DNA from: Odontesthes bonariensis
Taxonomy: Eukaryota > Chordata > Actinopteri > Atheriniformes > Atherinopsidae
Assembly: GCF_027942865.1 (NCBI RefSeq)
Contig: NC_134510.1
Coordinates: 30,956,163-31,020,162, forward strand
DNA length: 64,000 nt
Direction of reading: 5' to 3'
The position numbers were made by a program, and so were the translations under genes. The number at the start of each line of letters is the position of its first letter. Position 1 is the stretch's first letter. This document shows, one piece after another, positions 155 through 60,753 of the stretch. Below the pieces are notes generated by a model. It did not search any database. It worked only from the letters and a program-made list of their open reading frames with translations, and was not told the origin of the DNA.

Positions 155-1555
155 GGTCTACCATCTTAAAGTAGAATTGAAGCACATACTTGAAAAAATG
201 AGGAACCCACTAGAAAGCCGAGAAGCGTAAAAATGTGGTTACCAGAAACAGCAACAAGCAGCAGTAACACCTCTTTCTTTCTCAATATGACCTCAGACAA
301 GTGAATACGCTGTAATTCAGCAAAACACTTTGGAAATGAAATTTCTAAATAAAAACATCTAAAATGGGCTACTATTACAGTCACAAATGTAATATAACTG
401 TATAACCATTATATAGAAAACATAAAATGTATTTGATAAATATGGATTGTAAAATGAAGAGCATGTAGCATTTAATTAGTCATTTAAATGTTCTTTCTGT
501 TATGTTTCAAGAATATTAAACTCATGAATAGCTTTTACATACAACCTTAGATATCCTTCTTAGAGTTTTTCATTTTCATTGCCACTGATATTACAGTCAG
601 TCAGAATCTGTTAAAGAAAACCAAACAAACTTTCTACAAAGTATATTTGCTGACAAAGAATGTTGCACTGAACTTGGACAATATTTGGCTTTTGGTGATT
701 GAACTTGATCAAGAAACAGTCCAGCATGTCTTTTAATGGTAAATTCACATATTCAGTTAGGGTAATAAACAGATATATCCAAAATATATTAATATGCATG
801 GAGTCATAGTTTTTGGGCTGACGTGGTTTACAATTCACTGAGAGATATATTGAAGTGCTTCAGCTCACAGCAGAAATGTGGTGAGAAAACAATGGGACAT
901 GTTCATATAAACACTAAATCAAAATAAGTCACTTTATTTTACACAGGTAGGCTATAATCTTCCCAATATGATAATGCAGTAACTCAGACTTGGTATACAG
1001 GGTCCTGAATGTGATGTTTTACATCACCGAAGGTATACTCTATGCTTCTACAATATGTGGATTTCAAAAAACTAAAACTAAACTAAACTAATATTCATAA
1101 TGTAACTGGAACTACTCTTGTTAATATCAACATTATTTTCATTTTTGTAAGAAATTACACATTCATTGGACTTTGCACGTGTATTATATAAATCCCCAAT
1201 CAGAACCAGAATCTCATCTCATTTTAGACAGATATGCTGGAATATACCAGAATATGATCATAGCTCGAATTCAATATCCACTGTTGCTTCAATTTAACAG
1301 CTGTCCCTGCGTATTTCCCTGTGGATTGCGCACTTCTCTGCTTCAAGTAGGGAAACAACACGATGCAACGCAGCTGAAGATACAAAGGCGAACCACTAAC
1401 CTCGATAAGTGATTGGAAAATATTAAATATCTGAGCAAGTTGTCTAAAAAAGGATGAGAAAATGAGCTAGCTGGTGATTGAAATGACAAATAGTTGGAAA
1501 TAATCGGAGAATACTCTGAATTGGAACGCTGGTTGCGTGCGTATGTCATGGCGCG
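155..1555. other. AT-rich intergenic DNA, no gene recognised
   Basis: Stop codons are frequent in all frames, and no splice-bounded exon or known repeat was recognised. The short ORFs here are under 80 codons, with no family resemblance and no codon bias. Confidence 0.5.
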
Positions 1556-1860
1556 GATGGTCCATCCGGTTTATCGTTCTCAGCACAAAAATTCGACTGA
1601 CCGACTTTTCACGGTGCGCGCCTGGCCTGATACGTCATTTTGACGTCACGGGCCGTGAACGACACGTCATTCTTTAATGTGCGCACTCAGAATGATGACG
1701 CAGTAGTCCTTTGAGCTACGTCACAGTCAAGGGGAACGCATCTGTTCGGCAGATAGTTCATTATAGTCCAAGGCTGCTCGAAGTTTACTGTAACAAGCAA
1801 CCCTTTTGGTTTCCAACACTTAGGAACAACAGAAAGTCACTTCTTTGTAGCACAACTATG
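1556..1860 (+). promoter_or_regulatory. CpG-rich promoter-like patch with clustered CRE/ATF sites
   Basis: The base composition changes abruptly from AT-rich to CpG-dense. Within about 95 bp there are five CRE-like sites: TACGTCAT at 1631, a full palindromic TGACGTCA at 1641-1648, ACGTCAT at 1664, ATGACGCA near 1695 and TACGTCA at 1718. Such clustering is typical of CREB/ATF-driven TATA-less promoters. No TATA box was seen. Direction is inferred only from the ORF that starts downstream at 1942. It could instead be a promoter carried by a mobile element. Confidence 0.4.
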
Positions 1861-1941
1861 ATTCTCCCAGGATTTATCTAATCGCGTCAACACTCCACCG
1901 ACTGCGAGGAGTTGATTCCGTCCATCACAGAGCCACCGTTA

Positions 1942-2670
1942 ATGAAAACCTTTCCGACAAACAGTCGTGCAAATGTTTCAGCTGCTTTTGCCAGGACCAG
2001 AGAGAAACTGGCAACTGCCGCAGACTTTGCCCGACCAAGACTTTCAACCTTATTCGACCAGGCCCAAATCTTTCTTGGTCGGACTGGATCTGGAACTTTC
2101 ATGGCCATAGTCAAACACTGGATTATAACATACATGACCATTGCTGGATACAGAATTTCTGCGACTTTAAAAAGAGGAGGAGCTGCTTTTTCGGCAATCC
2201 GAGCGAGAATTTCAGCTACGGTGGCCGACACGTGCAAACGCGCTGCAAACGGCGAAACAAATCCAACAGTAAAACGCTGCAAGAGAAAAATGCGGCAATC
2301 ACAAAAACGACCGGAGCACACGCGCTGCAAACCCCAAAACACATGCAAGAGAGAAACGCTGCAAACTTCAAAACACATGCAAGAGAGAAACGCTGCAAAC
2401 TTCAAAACACATGCAAGAGAGAAACGCTGCAAACCCCAAAACACATGCAAGAGAGAAACGCTGCAAACCCCAAAACACATGCAAGAGAGAAACGCTGCAA
2501 ACCCCAAAACACATGCAAGAGAGAAACGCTGCAAACTTCAAAACACATGCAAGAGAGAAACGCTGCAAACTTCAAAACACATGCAAAAGAGAAACGCTGC
2601 AAACTTCAAAACACATGCAAGAGAGAAACGCTGCACACTTCAAAACACATGCAAGAAAAAAATGCGCTAG
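1942..2670 (+). CDS. Unrecognised ORF that reads into the foldback element
   Basis: From the ATG at 1942 an open frame runs 242 codons to TAG at 2668-2670. Only the first 92 or so codons, up to about 2218, are non-repetitive. They are rich in Ala, Arg and Thr, with a moderately hydrophobic stretch around FMAIVKHWIITYMTIAGY. The remainder is translation of the 34-bp tandem repeat, which lacks stops because of its composition and is unlikely to be a native protein. The motif ARPRLSTLF loosely recalls the PRL-A/S-T segment near the start of mitochondrial ATP synthase subunit g, but the rest does not match and I do not assign it. The position just after the CRE-rich patch suggests a first coding exon, or a remnant of one, interrupted by the element. 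Confidence 0.22.
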   Translation: MKTFPTNSRANVSAAFARTREKLATAADFARPRLSTLFDQAQIFLGRTGSGTFMAIVKHWIITYMTIAGYRISATLKRGGAAFSAIRARISATVADTCKRAANGETNPTVKRCKRKMRQSQKRPEHTRCKPQNTCKRETLQTSKHMQERNAANFKTHAREKRCKPQNTCKRETLQTPKHMQERNAANPKTHAREKRCKLQNTCKRETLQTSKHMQKRNAANFKTHAREKRCTLQNTCKKKMR

Positions 2671-3149
2671 GGGGTCTCGACCAGTGGGATAGGGGATCGA
2701 CTATGGGAGATCTACCATATTAATGAAAGAGAAGAAAGTCAAAAGGTACGTTGTCATTTATGTCTTTTTTAAACACTTGGCTGTAATCTTTTACTTTATT
2801 ATAGAAGAGCAGCGGAGTTATGTCGCTATAATAAGGTAAAAGATTACAGCCAAGTGTTTAAAAAAGACATGAGGACAACGTACCTTTTTACTTTCTTCTC
2901 TTTCATTAATATGGTAGGTCGAGACACCCTAGTGGCCTGGCGAACTTCCGTTGTGTTTTGAAGTTTGCAGCGCATTTTTTTCTTGCATGTGTTTTGAAGT
3001 TTGCAGCGTTTCTCTCTTGCATGTGTTTTGGGGTTTGCAGTGCGTGTGCTCCGGTCGTTTTTGTGATTGCCGCATTTTTCTCTTGCAGCGTTTTACTGTT
3101 GGATTTGTTTCGCCGTTTGCAGCGCGTTTGCACGTGTCGGCCACTGTAG
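2216..3149. mobile_element. Foldback (long inverted-repeat) element, full copy
   Basis: The two halves are near-perfect reverse complements. The outer ends are CTACGGTGGCCGACACGTGC on the left and its near complement ending at 3149. Inside come matching blocks, then a unique stem (for example GTGTTTAAAAAAGACAT against its complement near 2770 and 2850), closing on a loop of about 20 nt at 2803-2826. The whole element could fold into one hairpin. Arms differ mainly in the number of 34-bp units: ten on the left, about two on the right. No transposase ORF is present, so it would be non-autonomous (foldback or MITE type). I could not define a target-site duplication. Confidence 0.75.
2323..2662 (+). 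repeat. 34-bp tandem repeat (minisatellite), 10 units
   Basis: The motif ACACATGCAA recurs exactly every 34 bp at 2339, 2373, 2407, 2441, 2475, 2509, 2543, 2577, 2611 and 2645. Each unit holds a CGCTGCAAAC core, then CTTC or CCCC, then AAAACACATGCAAGAGAGAAA. The CTTC/CCCC variants come in blocks, as expected from local unit duplication. There are no spacers, so it is not a CRISPR. Because 34 is not a multiple of 3, three units read through all three frames, which produces spurious ORFs on both strands. Confidence 0.9.
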
Positions 3150-4649
3150 ATCCAGCTAAATAAAGTCTTTTTTGCTTTGGAAGTTTCTAACTTTCTAAAA
3201 TATTTGTAAGTATCTGAGCGGGAGCCTTGAAGAAAGCTGGCCATCTTCTCTGACTGCAAAGAAAAAGAGCTTTATTGCTTCCTTTATTATCTTCTTCAGC
3301 AGGAAACGCTGGACCATCCTTTGTGAAAGGAAAGGAGATCGTTCAGTCCCAAGATGGACTCAAATCAAGTGTATGTTTTAACTGTCACTGTGAAGTGCTG
3401 AACATTAGACATAGCAATTAAGGCTCAACAAATATCAAATAAAAGATTGATACAAATTAAGACAAATAAATAAAACTGAATCATAATAATAACCAAAGAA
3501 CAGGAAGAGCTGGTTCCACCATTTCAGGTCTACAACAGCAAAGGCCCAGTCCGTCTGTGCCCACCTTGGGACAATGAATAGTATATCTTAGGGGTCTTAA
3601 TGGCAGGTAAGGCTGTAACAAGTCAGAAATGTAAGAAGAAACAAGCTCATTCTGTGTCTTACGAGCCAGAAATGAAACCTAAACATTCATCCTACAATTT
3701 ATGAGGAGCCATTGGAGGGAGGCAAGTACCAGGCAGACGTGGTTACTCTTCCTTGTTCGTGTTAAAACATTATTCATTAACCTCCTCCTATTGCTTTGTC
3801 ATTAATTTTGCCAGTCCTGTCTGTCTTGGACTATTCTGATGTTTGGATTTCATTTTGATTTTCTCTACCTAAATGCTACAGCTGCTTTGTGTTGGTTTGC
3901 CTCTTTGCCAACCTTTCTTTAAACCCATAAAAAAATTTTAAGCCACTTTTCTTTATTCTACTTGCCTTTGTTTCGTGTCAAATCTTGACTTCTTTATCCC
4001 GCACAAAATCAAACCTGAAATATTGCGCGAGCCTAAGACTGAACTGAGAAATCAGTCGATGTAACACATTGGTTTTCAGGCAAAAACACCATATTAAACT
4101 GGTTACTTTGGAGTTATTTTGTCCGAGTCCCAAGCACTTGCACAGAAGAGTTTAAAAGTCCATTTTCGTATCACAATACAACATGGAAATGCCTCCATGT
4201 TTGTATTGTAAAACACTCCGTATGGTTACATGCACAGCTGAGTCAAGCTGAGGGTTAGAGTTTGACCTACAAACGTCCTTGTCCAAGTATATGTGCATAA
4301 AGTTCTTGACTGAAGCATGTCCGACATGTGATACTGTGGACTGAAACTGATAAAATGTTAAAGACATTGTGCCACCTCTAATATTCTCTGTGGGAGCTAC
4401 TCCTACATCTAACCACAGCCAAAATCACTGCACTGATGTTGTCTTTGAGTTAGTTGAATGGTGATTTTGTCAGATCATGCTGCAATTGTAAACTCAGGAT
4501 TTTAGTGGAGCAGAGCAACTGTTTGAAAAATGCCCTGAAACATTTGACACAGTCTTAAAAGGCTGCTTTCAGTCGTACTTTATGACATGTTTAGCTGTCT
4601 GACAAAGAAAGCAGAAAAGGTGTGAATGAGAGCAGTTTTATTGAGACTT
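3150..4649. other. Intergenic DNA between two foldback copies
   Basis: No gene was seen. The segment 3208-3239 is about 88% identical (28 of 32 positions) to 6580-6611, so a diverged dispersed repeat flanks the first foldback element. AATAAA-like and T-rich stretches near 3160 and 3440 look incidental. Confidence 0.4.
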
Positions 4650-5142
4650 AAAATTCAACAATAAAATGCTGCAAGAGAAAAATGCGGCAAATAACAAAAA
4701 CGACTGGAGCACATGCGCTGTAAACCCCAAAACACATGCAAGACAGAAACGCTGCAAACATCAAAACACATGCAAGAAAAAAAACGCTGCAAACATCAAA
4801 ACACATGCAAGACAGAAACGCTGCATACATCAAAACACATGCAAGACAGAAACGCTGCAAACTTCAAAACACATGCAAGACAGAAACGCTGCAAACTTCA
4901 AAACACATGCAAGACAGAAATGCTGCAAACATCAAAACACAACGGAAGTTCGCCAGGCCAGTAGGCGGTCTCAACCTGTGGGATAGGGGATCGACTATGG
5001 GAGATGGATCTACCATATTAATGAAAGAGAAGAAAGTCAAAAAGGTAGTTGTCATTTATGTCTTTTTTAAACACTTGGCCGTAATCTTTTACTTCATTAT
5101 ACAAGAGCAGCGGAGTTATATCGCTATTATAAGGTAAAAGAT
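4650..5142 (+). mobile_element. Second foldback-family copy, one arm plus loop only
   Basis: From about 4651 the sequence follows the left arm of the 2216-3149 element: a CTGCAAGAGAAAAATGCGGC block, a 34-bp repeat array, the AACGGAAGTTCGCCAGGCC block, GGGATAGGGGATCGACTATG, the AAAGAGAAGAAAGTCAAAA stem and the AGAGCAGCGGAGTTAT loop. It stops around 5142, just as the second arm would begin. The outermost 40 or so bases of the left end are also missing. It therefore cannot form the long hairpin. Confidence 0.75.
4716..4937 (+). repeat. 34-bp tandem repeat, about 6.5 units, variant of the first array
   Basis: ACACATGCAA occurs at 4732, 4766, 4801, 4835, 4869 and 4903; one interval is 35 bp because of an extra A. 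Units carry GACAG and CATC where the first array mostly has GAGAG and CTTC or CCCC. This indicates that the two arrays expanded separately from a common unit. Confidence 0.85.
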
Positions 5143-5493
5143 ATATGTCACATTGGGAGTTAAGAACCTGGATAATTTCTCCATCAAGGAAAATTATGGG
5201 GGACGTAAGGATGTGTGACACCTGTGTCACGGTGGGTGACACAGGTGCGGCTTATCTGCAGATTTTCACATCTTCATTGTAAACAAATTAATAACATAGC
5301 TAATTACACTGGTCGGACTGTTCAGCTGTTTCAGACTGATACCTCCGGTTCAGGCTGGTCCTCATCCTCAACACGCACGTTTCTCTTTCAATCGCGGAAA
5401 ATATTTTTCAATACTCATCTGGAATGAAGCAGCAAACATTCAGTGTAAGAGTTTAAAAAACCTACTTTATTGGATTCACAGCTGCTAGTGTTT

Positions 5494-5514
5494 GGGGGGG
5501 GGGGGGGGGGGGGG
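5494..5514 (+). repeat. Uninterrupted run of 21 G
   Basis: Twenty-one consecutive G residues occur between GTGTTT and CACTTG. A run this long can form G-quadruplexes, and its length is error-prone in sequencing. It lies in gene-free DNA. Confidence 0.95.
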
Positions 5515-6038
5515 CACTTGAGGTTTAGTGCCCAGGGGCACCACATTGACTTAATATGGCCCTGCTGTAAAACAGGAGAAAAATGATCAGACAGAGATGT
5601 GGCGTGCATAATTTTGAGCATTATACCATCATTTCTTCATCACTTAATACGAATACCCCGATTCCTTGTCTCTACTGCACTTTGCACATTGTGATAGTTT
5701 CCAACATCAATATTGCATACAGGCTGAAGCATCAACACAAGCGAGATCAGAGCCTCTTACTGCCATCTGGTGGACAAGAAAATACACTGCATCTCGTCTT
5801 AAGAAACTAATTGTCAATAGGAAATCATATTATTAACAACTTTTCCCACAAAGAGAGTCATACAGATCTTCCGTAAACCCTTCCATTAAAAAAAAAAAAA
5901 GTTAACTTTAATATAATTACTCATTGGTGGGCATCACATGTACAAGAAGGTCCAAAAATATGGAACTTATGTTACAACCTTATATTTGCTGGCATGTGTC
6001 ACTTTCTGGGGAACAGAAAGAATATGCGTGCATCCACG

Positions 6039-6553
6039 ATAAATGAACACAAACAGGGCGTCTGGTTGACTCGTCCTTTTCACTTAGAGAGCAAGTTTGC
6101 ATCTTTTCCAGATTAGATTTTGCCATCGAGGGATTCCATCTCTATTTTGTTGCTCACAAGATTTCTGGACACATTTCCCATTATGCATGTATTGTCCTCC
6201 AAAACGGAGCCAACAGATGGACTCCTGTACAATTATCCTCTCTTCATGCTCTCACAAATCACAGTGGTGTAATTTACATCATTATTCTTCTTCTTTGCTG
6301 AGCTTTTGCTTCTAGCCTGTTGAGATCTTTGATGATCAGCTGGATAAAAAAAACCTTCAACATACTGCTGTTGGCATAAATGTCATTTTATGCAGTGACA
6401 AATTCCTGAAGTGAAGAGAAAATAAGACATTTTGCTAGTTATATTATCCTCTTTTAATACCTCAGTTTGAAAACTTTACCTCGTTTATCGTTGATGCACA
6501 ATAAATGAACACAAACAGGGCGTCTGGTTGACTCGTCCTTTTCACTTAGAGAG
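6039..6553 (+). repeat. Exact 53-bp direct repeat separated by 409 bp
   Basis: The 53 bases from ATAAATGAACACAAACAGGG to CTTAGAGAG occur identically at 6039-6091 and 6501-6553. The intervening 409 bp has no recognised coding content. Possible causes are a recent short duplication, recombination or an assembly stutter. The copies are too short and lack TG...CA ends, so LTRs are unlikely. Confidence 0.85.
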
Positions 6554-7110
6554 GTTCCTAGTTGAATTATAAAGCACGGAAGTATCTGAGCAGCAGCCTT
6601 GATGAGAGCTGTTTGAATTCTTTAAAAGTGAAAAAGATGAGATTCCTTTATTAGCAGTTTTATCAAAGGAAATACCAGACTCTGAGAGTACATAGTTCCA
6701 TCCCACAACTTTTTGTGCTACTTTCATTGCAACACAATTATTTTTTATCCATTCATATTTACTGTGATTCACGTGGAAAGAGGGTGAGTGTGAACATCTG
6801 ACAGCAACGTCTTTGCCTTTTGATAAAAATGTTCTATCATTGTTTAATTACAAACCTTGGTTATATGATATATGATGATACATTTTATGTGTGTAACAGT
6901 GTGATAAGACTGCTTTAGACAAAGTATCTGAAAGACTTTTTCTAGGATATTTATTGAACATCCACAGTTTCAGACAGGAAATATAAAAAGTCATGAAAAC
7001 TATCATATCTACGGTACTTAACAGCATGATCATACTATTAATACTGTTAACGTTATTGTTATATGAATAATTCAAGTCAGTATGAAAGCATCAGAATTTC
7101 TCTTATAACT

Positions 7111-10101: not shown

Positions 10102-13100
10102 ATGCATGCGGACACTGTCTTTTTTGTGTGTCCCCTGATTTTTGGTGAGTAATTAAATGTTGATAATTCTTATGCCTTGTTTTTTTATATTCATTTCAAT
10201 TCCATTTATTATTTGCTCATCTTGCTGTCCCTGATACCTGAAAGGCATCACCAAAATCAATGCTGAAAGAGATGGAAGTATAGGATATTTATTGTTGTGT
10301 TTGAATGTTTTCTGCAAAATCCACTCTATTGGAAAAGTTTACAGATTTGCAGATTGGAAAATGTTTTGTCAAAAGTTATACATTCCTTTACTTTCTGACG
10401 CTGAGGTCACTGTGGAAATAATTGTGCAAAAAAAACCAAAACTTTTTTACATTTAACTGCATGGAGAGTTACAAACGAATAGTAAACTACTTCTGGGGCT
10501 AAAAGTGCAGTTACTCTCTTCCCTTTTCTAAATATGTGCCTATTGCGAAATCTTTCTGTCATATTAAGCACTTGCAGACAATGTAGTTCATAACAGCAGA
10601 GCAAATATTTTTTCTATTCAAATTTAGCATTTACAATGACTTCTCTACAAATAATCTAAAAGTAAGTTTATTTATATGCTCTTGACCAAAGACAGGGTCT
10701 CTGATTGTTCATGTTCTTGACAAACTGTATTAAGCTTCTCAGCTGTCGTACTGAAACAGAAAGGCAATGCAGGAATGCTGCATAACTGTATGGCGATACA
10801 GTCAAGTAGGCTCTCTTCCAATCCTTAAATGTACATGATGTTAGATCCTGATAGATTTTCTAAATCTTTTAATTGTTTTTCTCTTGTTGTTCTCCATCTC
10901 AACAGCGGTCTTATGGAGGGGGGTCCAGGCTGCCTCACCTACACCCTCAGTCCCTGATCGTGTCCAGGCTGTAGTGGGCTCCTGCGTGGTGATCCCCTGC
11001 TCTTTCACACCTGCAGCTCCTCACCCTGTCAGAGGGCGGAAGGAGAGGGTGGATGTGCGGATGAGGTTCAGCGGTGCTTTTTTTCCCCTCAAGAGCACTG
11101 CTTTTAACAGCCAGAACAAAGATCAAGTAAGCAGGGATTTCCAAGGGCGGACGTCCCTTTTTGGCCGTATCGCAGATGGAGACTGCTCAGTGAAGATTGA
11201 AAGCGTCAGACGGGATGATCCGCAGGTGTTTGAGATGACTCTGAAGAAAGGTGATGACTCACGCTGGGGGAAGCTAAGGAGCTTTAATCTAGAAATTATT
11301 GGTGAGTGAAGAACACAGTGTTCTGTCGGTTTTCCTGCTTTTTTAAAAAAACTCTGTTTTTTTTTCTCTTAGGTCTTTATCGTGCCTGACATAACAGAAA
11401 AAAAATTGCAAAATACAAAACCTTTTTTATAATCTGCAATCTACCTTGTATTTTTTCCAAAATGATGGTGATGACCAAAATTATGTGAGGATTGTTCATT
11501 GAATAGTCATAAACAGATCAAATAATGAAGTAAAGCTAGAATGAACTGGAATAAACTTCCTAATATAATACAAAGATGGGTTTGACAGGTTTGTTCAATC
11601 ATTTTTTTCAGAGAGATTCTGTCTTGCACTTTTGTTGAATTGCAGTGTCTTTAATTATGTACAGAAAGGCAATAACACCCAGAACTGATGAAAACTTTCA
11701 TGCCGGCAGACACCCCTGAGCCTCCCGTCATCAGCGGCATGTTGTCAGCGACAGAGGGACAGCTGGTCACCCTGAACTGCTCTGTCAGCTATCACTGCCC
11801 CTCCAGACCTCCTGCCCTGCAGTGGAGGTGGGAGCGAGGAGCCCGGCTAAATAGTACTGAGCCTGGGGCAGTGCAGACAATCTCTCCAGATCCAAACAGG
11901 CTGATGTTACTGGCCTCTCTGTCCTTCACTGTGTCCCACCAGGTGAAGCCCCGGCTCAGGTGTGAGGTCAGCTACCCAGGAGCCAAAATGCTAGCCACTG
12001 TCAAGGATCTGCATGTGACATGTAAGCAGAGTTCTGACACATAGCTCTGTGCATCTTGGCTCAGTTTACACTAAATCTCTTCTTTCTTTTTTATGTTTTA
12101 GTTCCACCAAAAGATGTGAAGGTTCAGGTCCAGACCTTAACAGTGCAGGAGGGGGGTAGTGCCTTGCTGGTGTGCTCATGCAAAGCTGACCCTCCAGCTA
12201 CAGAGTACCGCTGGTCCTACACTCAACACGGTCAAACTGTGCACCTCCACCAGCGTTTACACGCAGTGCGGATCATGAACGTCACCAGAGCTATGAGGGT
12301 CCGCTGCTCAGCTCAGAACTTGATTGGTCGAGGAGAGTCCAAGCCCACATCACTAAACATACAGTGTAATTCTACCTCTTCCTGACCCTCCACTATTGCA
12401 ACACTAACAGCAGTGCTTTACTGCTCTCTCTGGTTTCAAATTTGTTTCACTTCTGACTAGTTTAGTTTCGTCAGCAGTCATGCCACAGTGTACTAACCAC
12501 AGCACCATTATCTGCTCCACCCTGGAGATTCATGGCAGTTGTTCCCAGACCAGATTGAGTTGGGCACACAGCTTTGCATATAGGAGTAAAAAGTCATTCT
12601 AGCACCACACATGTAAATGAGTTAGTATTCAAGGTTTTGTCATCAGATTTGCTTTGCAGAGCCAGACTGCTTTTTGCCTGTCTCAAGTATTTAAGCTAAT
12701 TTTCCTTCACTTTAGGAAATAGAGTGGTTTATTTCCCAAAATAGTAAACATACACATTCATATTTGTCATCAGACATCATCATATCATTCCTTGTGTATT
12801 AACTGAAAGCACATTTCTAAGCTTTGGTGTAAGACACTTTTTAACCTTACATCTTTTATTTAGTGACGTTACGGCTCCATTCACAGTATACTGTTTATAC
12901 AGGCTAAAAGCAATATGATCAAGCAGAATTCCAATATCTTGTGAAATTAAGAATAAGTGCAATACCACCATCTAAACAAAGTGAAGTAAATATTAATTGT
13001 AATAGGAAAGTGTAAAAGAACATCGTCTCTCTCCTCCAGATAAGCCAGCCATCCTCCGGCTCTCCTCCTCCTGTGTTGCGAAGGAGTCTAAGGTGCTGTG

Positions 13101-48994: not shown

Positions 48995-49018
48995 ATGGTC
49001 ACAGGAGCGAGAACATGA
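48995..49018 (+). promoter_or_regulatory. drd2l: Upstream ORF overlapping the drd2l start (ATGA overlap)
   Basis: An ATG in near-optimal context (GACCATGG) at 48995 opens a 7-codon ORF, MVTGART. Its TGA (49016-49018) overlaps the receptor ATG (49015-49017) as ATGA. It lies in the same exon, 7 nt after the splice acceptor, so it should be in every mature transcript using that acceptor. A stop overlapping the next start is a layout compatible with reinitiation and reduced receptor translation. Confidence 0.55.
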
Positions 49019-52000
49019 CTTTCCTAAATGAGTCGGACGAGACCTCCTCTCCCTCCTTCCTTCTCTCCTCCCTTGAGAAAAATGTCTCTGCTTTCATCAC
49101 CCATGCACCCTCATATTCCCTCATATCCATCCCCACCTCCTCCTCCTCCCTTCTGACATCCTCCAACTGCACCAGCGCTGCATCCACCTCCTCTCCTCCG
49201 TACAACTTCTACGCCGTGCTTTTAGTCCTCCTGATTTTCTGCGTTATTTTCGGCAACGTGCTGGTCTGCGTGGCGGTTTCTCGGGAGCGTGCTTTGCAGA
49301 CCACCACCAACTACCTCATAGTCTCCCTGGCTGTCTCCGACCTGCTGCTGGCAACACTGGTCATGCCCTGGGGCGTCTACCTGGAGGTGTGTGTTATGGT
49401 GTTTTGAGGCATCAGCATTGTGATTATTTTCTGTTCATAAGCAGAAAAAGTGGAAAACACTTCTTCAGATGCAAAGACACTAAAAGTGGCTGTTTCTCTA
49501 AAAGTTTAAAAGTTTATGATACTATCCACTGCAGTGGATTCAAAACGAACAAATATCATCAAACAAACCAGATCAAATATTCTTCAGAATTTTTTGTCAG
49601 AAAACAGCAGAAGTTTCATTTTCATAATTCAGAGAGTTTCATAGTTTCAAAGATCAAGGTAGCTTTCCATCAGCTTATTTTGTCTAACTGGAAGTACAAA
49701 ACCAAAAGATATATAGTTCAGATTGTCTTCTGACAAAAGAAACATGCAAATCCTCAGCTTTGGGAAGATGGGACAGATGATTTAGTGCCAATTAAAAGTG
49801 ATTGTTTAATTTATGAACTGCTAAAGCAAAACTAAATGACTTACTCGGTTGAATAAATACACAAAAAAATCAGATCAATAATGAGATGACCTACAATTAT
49901 GGAAAATGTCTCCATGGCACCGAGGAATTAATTTCAGTCTGCAAAACACATTCTGCATTCATGATTTTTTGTGTAAACGCCATTATCTTTTGATAGTTAA
50001 AATCCCTTTTGCGTAATGTCAAAAGAAAATCATGATGGCCTCCTTCTAATAAAAAGCAGAACTGAATACTAAGACTAAGCAAAGGAGGCTTGTATTTGCC
50101 TTAGTTGTATTGATCCGTTTGCACCAGAGTTCGAATATAAATTGGCCAAACTACACAAAAGGAGCAAAAGTTTAAGCCATGAGATGTTAGAAAGGAAGTG
50201 TGTGCGCCATAACTTGAGATTGTGTTTGTTTTGTTGAAGGTGGTTGGAGAGTGGCGCTTCAGTCTGATCCACTGTGACATCCTGCTCACCCTGGACGTCA
50301 TGATGTGCACCGCCAGCATCCTTAATCTCTGTGCTATCAGCATTGACAGGTGGATTTACTCTTTACCCTCACTTTATTGTGATTGCTGGAGTTTTATCTC
50401 TTTTATTGGTGTGTCTCCTTTTATTTATTATACTTCACCCTAAACCTTTAATCCTCTTTATTCCAGTTTTTGCCATTTATCATTATCTCCAGAATAGCCT
50501 TTCAGCAAGTGAAGAAGATGTTTCATAACAATTTCACTGCTTTCAAAGACCAAATAACGAGGATGACAGTAAATCGATATGTGATTCTTAAGTCTCTACC
50601 CTAACCTTAAGCTTGATATGTGTAGGTTGGGATAGATCAGAGGTTTTCAAAGTAAAAGGTGGGCTTTCTCGGGGGAGGTACAAAATGCTTTGGAAGTCAC
50701 TCATTAAAGAGAAGCAAAACATTATTACACTGATTATAACATCAAAAGCAGCTCAGGTAATGTAGCCAACATGTGATTTTTAATAGCTGAGAAGGTGTTC
50801 CTACTTATAAAGAGTCAGAAACTAATAATTGGATATAATGGCTCAATTGATGAGTGTAGGTGCGTTGCTAGGCATAGAGCTCTATTGTGGCACAGGCTCC
50901 CCATCAATCAAACTGTTTTATTGTTTTATTCATAAGCCTTGCTGTTTGTATAAGATATGCAATACAATGTAATCTTACATTACATCTATTTTTCTGTCCA
51001 CATGCTGACCTTGTTCCTCTTACTCCCTTCCTGTCTCCTCTCTATCCTAAAAAAACAAACAAAATTCAAAGTCTAATATAAGGTATGAATTGATCAATAT
51101 TTATTTTTATTACTATTCTAATGAAATATAACCTTGTTGAAAGAAATGCTGTCAGGTAGCATTACTTTGACCACTTTCACCTGAACTTGGTGGTTTAAAA
51201 CTTGTTTGTCCATCTAAAAACAAAAATTCCCCAAGAGTGTTTGTTTTAATACTAAATATATGATAAAGCCCACATCTATAAATATATATATAAAAAAAAT
51301 ACATTTTAAAAACTGATTAGAATAATAAAGTACATTAGTGAAATCAGGACAATTAAAGCAGCAAAGGAAGTTAGACAAGGGAGAGCCGGAGAGACAACAT
51401 TAACCATCCATCACCATTATCTCTGAGCTCAGCTGTTGCTGTTGTCTTCAGTCATTGTGTAATGTTATCATGCTTCAATCTAAAATGCTCTAACACAAAC
51501 TGCATATGAATTTTGTCTCTCTATTACAGTCCTATATGTTCCAATATGCACAGCGTGCACCGACACACTTTGAATTGTATTTTGACAAAAAAAACTCCCT
51601 TGAAATGTACAATGTGTCCAATCAAAAAATCATAAAGTATCGACCATACAAGCGGCAGAAGGGAAACTTTTTTATGTGCAGCGCTTTCAAATATGACCAC
51701 TGTTTCTTTTTCACTTCTGACTTATGTTGACTTAATAACACAACCGTTTTGTCACGTTCTGGTTAGGTTGAGGCAATAACACTTATTAGTTATGGTTTGA
51801 AATGAACACTACTTGGTCTTGGTTATAAAACTACCATGGTTAGGGCTAAAATATATTATTTTACATCATTTTTACAACTCACATGGAATTGCTCTCACAA
51901 CCGCTATAGGCTGCTTATTATTCTAATGTAAATGAAGGTCTTAATGGTCTGCATGAGCAAACGCCCCATGTGGTCACATTTGGGAGGAGAACCATCTGAT

Positions 52001-58000: not shown

Positions 58001-60753
58001 TGTTTGTCACCAAAAGCTTGCCTCCTTCCTCCCTCTCTGTGTGTCAGACTCTAGTGAAGGAGGCGGTGGTTCACCCCCTCGAAGTGGAGCCAGGTCAGTT
58101 CCTGCCACAGACTGAGCAGAGCCTGGCTCCTCCCCCTGCTCCCCAGACCTCGTCCCGGATCTCCCTGTCCATCTCAGTCGGACCTGCCCCTGTTCTTCCC
58201 TCTACCGTGACACGATCGGCTCTGACACCCCGCCCTCCAACACTAGAGGATGGCATGAGGAGTCGTGAGGGATGGAGGGAGCGCAGCGGAGGCAGAGAGA
58301 AATGGGGCACAACCAAGGAGAGGGTGAGAGGGAGGCTGTCCCAGCAGAAGGAGCGGAAGGCAACGCAGATGCTTGCAATTGTGCTTGGTGAGCAGGGGGA
58401 AGTACAGGCTAATTGATAAGATGTTCACATTTGGATTATGTACACACACGCAGCGTGTAGCCTGTCTCACCCTTTCGAGGTGTATGGACAAAGCTGCCAC
58501 TGTGTACGTATACAAATCAATTAGTGTACACAAATATCAATGCATACTAAAATAAGCTCAAGGCAACAGTTTCACACTTTGAAAACATTTTTATTTGCTT
58601 TCAGCAAATGTGCTGAAGGAAAAGACGTTTGCCAACATCATCATCATCACTCATCCCCCAAAGTTAGTGGATGATTAGTCTTGCTGTTAATCTTGTTTGC
58701 TATTTTGTTTTTAAAATTTCCACAGCCCTGTTCTTGATTCCAGGAGGCTTTTGCTGCCATTGTTGAATATTTACACCCACACAAGCACTTGTAGTGTTAG
58801 ACACCAGCAATTGTTAATTACATTTAGCTAAAACATCATTAGAACAACAATAACTCTTCAGGGGACAAATCGACTTCGACTACTAGTCCATACTGACATG
58901 ACAGCATCACACATTTGCTGCAGATTTATGGCCAGTACTACCATGTTCCACCATGTCCCAAAGGTGAAATATTGGACTGGGATCAGGTGACTAAGTAGGC
59001 ACATGAGTGTGGTAAACTCACTGTCTTGATCAAGAAGCCAGTCAGAGATCATTATCTATGTGACATGTAGCTTTATTCTTCTGAAAGTAGCCTTCATAAG
59101 ATGGACATATAACGGTCATAGAGCTAGGAATGATCAGGAACGATACTCAGGTTGTGCTAATCCACAACGTGTGCAAAGTTTTAAAGTCTGAGGTCCACAT
59201 GAAAGGAAGTTATACAGTCTGAGTTTTTCAGTGTGTTTCAGACAGAAGATGGCAACATGTGCGGGAGTAATGTTCATTATCACACAAATACATAAACAGC
59301 AACAAATAAGTGTTATTGTAACACTGTAACAATGTTATGTTCTTCCCAGAGAGTGCAGTCACCTTCCCTCTGTGCGTGTCATAATCCAAGATAAAGTATT
59401 ATTTGTTGTGGGAGACCCTCTGGCTGTGGACGCTCATGCACGTTGGCCTCTTCACTGCATTGCAGAGCAAGAAAACTTCCAGGTTTTCTTCCACAAAATC
59501 AACTACATGCTTAAACTAAAATTATTTTCACAAAGGGAAGGATAACAAATCAACTTTGCATTAGATTTTTTCCAAGAAATAGAAAAGGGCTCCGGGGTAT
59601 GGTGAAGTATGTGGAAAGGAATTACAATCTATTGTCCTTTCTGATATATATAGGAAAGACAAAAGTGTAAGATATTACAGTAGCAGGCTGTACGGACTCA
59701 CCCTCATATTTATCCACACAAGTCACACTTGGTATGACTGCATGAAAAAATCATTGAGGAAAGCTTTGAACATTGTGGCTGCAAGGAGTTGTGGGACAGA
59801 AAGAATATTTTCAGGAGGATGCTCCAGTGTTTCCAGTGTTTAAGGAGATAATAAACGAAGCATTGGAGCTCTTTTTCTTCATATTTAGACAATTCAAACA
59901 GTTCTTGGGCTGCTTCACAAGCAAAAAAACACTATATGACTGGATCCCAAGTTTGCTTTGGACTGAGATTTTGCAGCTCTAGTGTAGTATCCAGTGATTT
60001 TCCTAAGTAGGACCTTTAAAGCATGTAAACCTGTTAAAATAGATTCCAAAAATAAAGTATTAAATTTGTTAGTGAGCATGATATAGGCTGTTTAAATGAT
60101 GGCGGGTTAGTATTAAGTGCCTCAGTCACAAAGAAAGATTCTCCAATTCATTACAAGACTACTCAAAATTAAAGCAATGGTTTTCAATGATATTCTGTCT
60201 TGTATCAATAATTCTTTGTTTTACCAAATTCTCACACATCTGAATGTTTCTGCAAAAATCTGTATTTATCAGAGTATACAATGTTTTACTGTACAATATA
60301 GTTGAGACAATGCATACTGTGACTTCACAGCATTGGCCCACAGAGTGGCCTTCTGTTGCTATCGCCCATCTACTTCAAGGTTTGACATGCTGTGCGCTCA
60401 AACTTAATCCTCTGTTCAGATTAAGTGGTTATTTGAGTAACTGTAGCCTTTTTTTATCAGCTCAAATCCCTCTGGCTACTCAGAACCCATAAACAAGCCA
60501 TTTTCAGCAGAGAACGACTGCTCATGGCTGTTTTTTTTGTCTCTTCTCTTTCCAAGGTGTATTTATTATCTGCTGGCTGCCTTTCTTCCTGACCCACGTG
60601 CTAAAGGCGCACTGCAGGAGCTGCTGCATCTCGCCTTCACTGTACAGTGCTGTCACCTGGCTGGGATACCTCAATAGTGCCGTCAACCCTGTCATCTACA
60701 CCACTTTCAACATTGAATTTCGCAAAGCTTTCATCAAGATCCTGCACTGCTAG
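49015..60753 (+). CDS. drd2l: D2-class dopamine receptor (drd2-like), 7 coding exons, 484 aa
   Basis: Exons: 49015-49386, 50240-50349, 54281-54417, 56973-57187, 57728-57811, 58048-58387, 60557-60753; all sites are GT/AG and phases agree. Key class-A GPCR residues are present: TM2 Asp109, TM3 Asp143 (amine-binding), DRY at 160-162, Cys136-Cys214 disulfide, TM5 Ser225/226/229 (catechol contacts), CWLPFF in TM6, NPVIY at 463-467 and a terminal ILHC with a likely palmitoylated Cys484. Sequence and all intron positions match mammalian DRD2, and exon 5 ([12 protein letters not shown]) is the D2-long insert. Role: Gi/o-coupled plasma-membrane receptor lowering cAMP. The N-terminus is about 29 residues longer than human D2, very Ser/Thr-rich, with sequons at N5, N23 and N51. 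The third intracellular loop is divergent apart from its end ([18 protein letters not shown]). HCRSCCISP in the last extracellular loop is somewhat D3-like. Paralogue naming (drd2l versus drd2b) is tentative. Confidence 0.93.
50350..54280 (+). other. drd2l: drd2l intron 2
   Basis: 3.9 kb without recognised exons, containing the retroelement tail at 52858-53140. The ORF at 53663-54064 has no similarity or splice framing. Confidence 0.4.
52858..53140 (-). repeat. Interspersed retroelement 3' end (AATTCAATT...TATTTATATAGCGCC type)
   Basis: AATTCATTTTTATTTATATA followed by GCGCCAAATACAACAAATTT and TCTCAAGGCCGTT is a very common teleost repeat end. A diverged second AATTCAATTCATTCATATAG lies about 100 bp later. 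It has no coding part. Confidence 0.55.
54418..56972 (+). other. drd2l: drd2l intron 3
   Basis: 2.6 kb, AT-rich, with T-rich tracts (T16 near 55588). No exon or defined repeat was recognised. Confidence 0.4.
57728..57811 (+). CDS. drd2l: drd2l exon 5, D2-long/D2-short cassette exon
   Basis: 84 bp, 28 codons (residues 279-306), phase 0 on both sides, so it can be skipped without a frameshift. It aligns with the 29-codon exon whose inclusion or skipping makes D2L or D2S in mammals, sharing C-T-x-PED-x-KLCT. Acceptor CCTTTTCAG and donor GTG|GTGAGT are strong, so inclusion is likely the default form. The insert lies in the third intracellular loop that contacts G proteins. Confidence 0.85.
58388..60556 (+). 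other. drd2l: drd2l intron 6
   Basis: 2.2 kb between the exon ending the third intracellular loop and the TM6-TM7 exon. No exon or known repeat was recognised. Confidence 0.4.

Follow-up and report, generated by a model that had tools for sequence, protein, structure and literature searches.

Angel and related palindromic miniature elements, found in fish genomes, are short, nearly palindromic, and non-coding. It is in this short, palindromic, non-coding form, as Angel-type elements are generally described, that they resemble the element at positions 2216 to 3149 considered here, and to our knowledge a 34-bp array is not part of them. Tetris, a foldback transposon of Drosophila virilis, has no apparent coding capacity, and in the available part of its description each arm consists of an outer flank, tandem repeats in variable number, and an inner part (PMC4079207). 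The repeats may stem from the arm's own terminal part, and Tetris copies have been proposed as seeds of dispersed satellite arrays in flies (PMC4079207). In subfamily F of Galileo from Drosophila mojavensis, the number of tandem repeats is unequal in the two terminal repeats of one copy, which has been read as independent dynamics of each arm, and the tandem repeats are reported to contain secondary binding sites (PMC3573991, in the part available).

The window, a 64,000-nucleotide stretch of the Odontesthes bonariensis genome, contains an imperfect palindrome of 934 bp at 2216 to 3149 (copy 1). The first-pass annotation had described a near-palindrome of this length around a loop of about 20 nt; its coordinates were correct, and the loop measured 21 nt. 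The left arm (2216 to 2804, forward strand) is 589 nt long, with the terminus CTACGGTGGCCGACACG, and the inverted right arm (2826 to 3149, reverse strand) is 324 nt long; the loop (2805 to 2825, forward strand) lies between their innermost parts. The outermost arm pair (178 nt; 2216 to 2393 and 2972 to 3149) was 97% complementary, the middle pair (47 nt; 2709 to 2755 and 2874 to 2920) 96%, and the innermost pair (45 nt; 2760 to 2804 and 2826 to 2870) 98%. When the element was aligned with its own reverse complement by blastn, the best score was 385 bits, compared to no more than 32.8 bits for 100 first-order-Markov random sequences. The folding energy of the element as single-stranded DNA was −372.7 kcal/mol, compared to a mean of −126.2 kcal/mol (standard deviation, 5.8) for 20 shuffled sequences. 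The palindrome is real and far above chance. Inverted arms account for most of copy 1 and leave almost no middle, which is a structural mark of foldback elements.

Short direct repeats within the arms, a further structural mark of such elements, were also present. With a period of 34, Tandem Repeats Finder called 9.8 units in the left arm (2323 to 2656, forward strand) and 2.5 units in the right arm (2952 to 3040, reverse strand), in agreement with the ten and about two units counted earlier, and the difference in length between the arms is due mostly to this array. A third 34-bp array (4716 to 4941, forward strand; 6.6 units), which has its own unit variant (GACAG) and was absent from the first-pass annotation, belongs to a second copy of the element (copy 2). 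The arms of copy 1 also differ by internal deletions. Missing from the left arm are 38 alignment columns present in both the right arm and copy 2; the right arm in turn lacks 30 nt (34 columns) present in the left arm, a segment that is kept in copy 2 and is 4 nt longer there. These deletions, which had gone unrecorded, are separate.

A near-terminal stretch of 57 nt (2226 to 2282, forward strand), the likely source of the array unit, recurs at 2308 to 2364, an offset of 82 bp, with 45 of 57 positions identical, and 26 of the 34 positions of the 34-mer at 2241 are shared with the array unit. Because the terminal stretch is repeated inward and this 34-mer resembles the unit, the array looks like a duplicated element end. 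Judging from the sequence, the element's own end thus seems to be the source of the array, having been duplicated and later amplified in 34-bp steps. The corresponding similarity is 79% over 57 nt here versus ~80% over 37 bp in Tetris (PMC4079207). Within 2216 to 3149, the motif GCTGCAA is found 11 times in the orientation of the left arm and 4 times in the opposite one.

The element resembles Tetris in its long inverted arms, in its layout of outer part, array, and inner part, and in showing no sign of coding capacity, a likeness of architecture rather than of compared sequences, whereas its arms are much smaller and its unit is 34 bp rather than about 220 bp (PMC4079207, from the part available). 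Like Galileo of D. mojavensis and Drosophila willistoni, it has two terminal repeats without a transposase, internal tandem repeats, and unequal arms, but the repeat is about 210 bp in Galileo, and again the resemblance is not one of compared sequences (PMC3573991, PMC4168063, in the parts available). The one-sided expansion to which the first-pass annotation drew attention is real insofar as the arms are unequal, but it is not special to this element, since it has been published for Galileo subfamily F (PMC3573991).

Copy 2 (4651 to 5142, forward strand) was found when the element was searched against the window by blastn. It lies 1.5 kb from copy 1 in the same orientation, and the best blastn pieces were 4651 to 4941 at 91% identity and 4670 to 5142 at 87% identity. 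Copy 2 is truncated and lacks both ends: the outer ~43 nt of the left arm are absent, and after six full array units, a partial unit, the mid-arm, the inner arm, and the loop, the match extends over no more than the first ~20 nt of the right arm. The loop 20-mer GAGCAGCGGAGTTATGTCGC (2807 to 2826) recurs at 5105 to 5124 with 19 of 20 nucleotides identical. Two copies were detected within the window. The flanking stretches at 1200 to 2220, 3145 to 4660, and 5140 to 6500 had no mutual blastn match at an E value of 1e-3, and a segmental (local) duplication was therefore rejected as the origin of copy 2. Because the arm-loop-arm junction is common to two copies with unlike flanks, the palindrome is a trait of the family.

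The best explanation, to which we assign a probability of roughly 0.85, is that the two copies belong to a family of non-autonomous foldback DNA transposons, with at least two copies here, whose arrays vary between arms and copies. Three supports were observed: the near-identical inverted arms, the loop common to two diverged copies, and the resemblance of the unit to the terminal sequence. Counting against it are the want of a clean target-site duplication, the lack of any transposase-like Pfam match in the 10 stretches scanned, and the low number of copies, with two in the window and neither end present in the second. The first-pass annotation had likewise read the element as a foldback whose arms carry internal tandem repeats, and the same loop junction in the second copy favors this reading.

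Arms and copies were compared after removal of gap columns and of surplus array units. The left and right arms of copy 1 differed at 10 of 286 positions, whereas the two arms differed from copy 2 at 24 of 274 and 30 of 281 positions. Among 243 gap-free columns covering both arms and copy 2, private sites numbered 20 in copy 2, 7 in the right arm, and 1 in the left arm, and one site differed in all three. By these counts, each arm of copy 1 is nearer to its partner arm than to copy 2. Such closeness, along with the lack of a convincing target-site duplication, might suggest that the palindrome at 2216 to 3149 stands alone, as a local inverted duplication or as two elements placed head to head, and that there is no mobile unit. 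We consider this improbable. Copy 2 has the same loop and does not break off until after ~20 nt of right-arm sequence, the flanks of the copies are unlike, and conversion between the arms, or faster or older decay of copy 2, can each explain the closeness of the arms, although CpG decay accounts for only 4 of the 20 private changes of copy 2. Separate elements lying head to head, the outcome that the first-pass annotation had set against its own reading, were not seen, since copy 2 has the loop junction.

The presence of three 34-bp arrays within ~2.6 kb would also be in keeping with a minisatellite that came to lie in inverted orientation by chance, without a transposon. However, this is very unlikely, as the palindrome also takes in sequence outside the arrays, at the outer end and in the inner arm, and arm sequence from ~43 nt inside the end through to the loop is common to copy 2. 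Palindromes are a known class of artifact, but an assembly or library foldback artifact is scarcely credible when the arms differ in substitutions, in separate deletions, and in array length, when the flanks are unlike where the inverted match ends, and when the loop recurs in the diverged copy 2. The arm-loop-arm order in copy 2 is the strongest evidence against both the head-to-head and the artifact readings.

From the outside, the left-arm array of copy 1 consists of one CCCC unit, two TTC units, three CCCC units, and four TTC units, the last of which has an A-rich tail. The right arm has one CCCC unit, one TTC unit with an A-rich tail, and one partial unit, and copy 2 has one CCCC unit, one A-rich unit, four further units, and one partial unit. 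Tails in the left arm were of the GAGAG type in 8 of 10 units, the remaining two being one AAGAG and one A-rich; the two full units of the right arm had one GAGAG-type and one A-rich tail. In copy 2, five of the six full units had GACAG-type tails and the sixth was A-rich. Because a distinct tail variant characterizes the array of each copy, these patterns suggest that the arrays were amplified or homogenized after copies 1 and 2 diverged. The A-rich unit is the tenth and last in the left arm and the second in both the right arm and copy 2. This placement suggests separate expansions, although the A-rich unit may also have originated twice. The placement is not explained by simple stepwise growth at one place, which is a point against the best explanation.

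The earlier proposal was that units were gained by replication slippage or hairpin processing after insertion. The unit variants are compatible with slippage or unequal exchange but are no proof of it, and nothing in the data requires hairpin processing. As to timing, amplification or homogenization can be placed solely after the divergence of the copies and not relative to insertion.

If the copies are foldback transposons, their ends would be recognized by a transposase encoded elsewhere, and the repeated subterminal GCTGCAA motifs might, by analogy with Galileo, serve as extra putative transposase-binding sites. The copies would have moved by cut-and-paste. Array length would vary independently in each arm and copy, whether by replication slippage or by an unequal exchange of 34-bp units, the outcome here being ~10 units in the left arm and 2.5 in the right.

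The element ends are CTACAGTGGCC, with CTACAGTGGCCGACACG as the 17-nt end, and the inverted match of copy 1 stops at CTAC/GTAG. No clean target-site duplication was found at the ends of copy 1 in a scan of lengths 5 to 10 with left anchors at 2214 to 2218 and right anchors at 3148 to 3154, from which decayed duplications could escape. The perfect 7- to 8-bp duplication that is a trait of Galileo and the P superfamily was not found, the best candidate being 6 bp. Tetris has target-site duplications of 8 to 10 bp, and none such was found here (PMC4079207, in the part available). For Galileo, a P-superfamily transposase is known and 7- to 8-bp duplications are described in D. willistoni, neither of which could be demonstrated for this element (PMC4168063, in the part available). 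TA at 2217 to 2218 and at 3147 to 3148 adjoins CRGTGG...CCACTG, an arrangement seen at 0.46% of random position pairs in a post hoc test. TA at both ends is a trait of Tc1/mariner elements, but the inverted match continues through the TA to CTAC/GTAG. The sequence CAGCTA is present at 2213 to 2218 and at 3153 to 3158, where it lies 3 nt beyond the right arm and is thus not flush; 28 of 2,000 random flank pairs scored as well, also in a post hoc test. The TA/TA and CAGCTA candidates imply different element ends.

The window has 17 open reading frames of at least 110 amino acids, and no transposase-like Pfam match was found in the 10 stretches scanned (nine whole frames and part of a tenth). Rfam gave no match in the window at gathering thresholds. 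Exact patterns of the array unit had no match in viral_contigs or genome_contigs, the inner-arm pattern had none in viral_contigs, and the whole element had none in distant-mode blastn against phages and plasmids; these viral, prokaryotic, and plasmid collections carry little weight for an animal element. A description of the family was not found in the literature among the titles and abstract beginnings of the matches listed, and a text search for acgctgcaaac returned, among the matches listed, papers on other subjects alone.

One open frame (1912 to 2670, forward strand; 252 amino acids) crosses from the left flank into the array. The part at 1912 to 2220 had no Pfam match at E values up to 0.5 and no PDB match at E values up to 10, G+C by codon position in 1942 to 2214 was 0.43/0.57/0.36, richest at the second position, and an antisense frame is also open. 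A disrupted gene is not claimed at this chimeric frame, which is probably due to chance.

Elsewhere in the window, an open frame at 49015 to 49407 (forward strand), probably an exon, had dopamine D2/D3 receptors as the best among the best 60 of 365 PDB matches, which by itself points to an animal host, most likely a vertebrate. Immunoglobulin-like frames within 10884 to 12044 (forward strand) comprise a V-set (10884 to 11309) and an Ig_2 or CD80-like C2-set domain (11688 to 12044), with V-set and Ig_2 scores slightly below the Pfam cutoffs. Copy 1 is contained in a CpG-island-like stretch (1201 to 3200), where the observed/expected CpG ratio was 0.66 to 1.11 in five 400-nt bins, compared to 0 to 0.28 in the two bins before (401 to 1200) and 0.27 to 0.28 in the two after (3201 to 4000); TGACGTCA occurs within it at about 1641. 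In the right flank of copy 1, 3259 to 3320 has an inverted match at the far end of the window (59816 to 59879; 64 columns, 83%), possibly another dispersed repeat, and 3208 to 3239 has a direct match of 32 bp (87.5%) beyond copy 2 at 6580 to 6611. A 60-bp direct repeat, 97% identical, is present at 6032 to 6091 and 6494 to 6553, about 460 bp apart.

Taken alone, this is one modest repeat family that changes no general view. Known elements already show both the anatomy and the one-sided expansion, and what is new may at most be the family. A broader proposal is conceivable, if doubtful: a vertebrate foldback family in which minisatellites arise in the arms, repeatedly and independently, from the arms' own transposase-binding ends, and in which single copies seed new dispersed satellite arrays. 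Should further copies bear the foldback reading out, Tetris and Galileo of flies would have a vertebrate counterpart in this family. The family would then illustrate how a transposon's own end turns into a tandem repeat, a process recorded in the unit variants of the two arms and the two copies.
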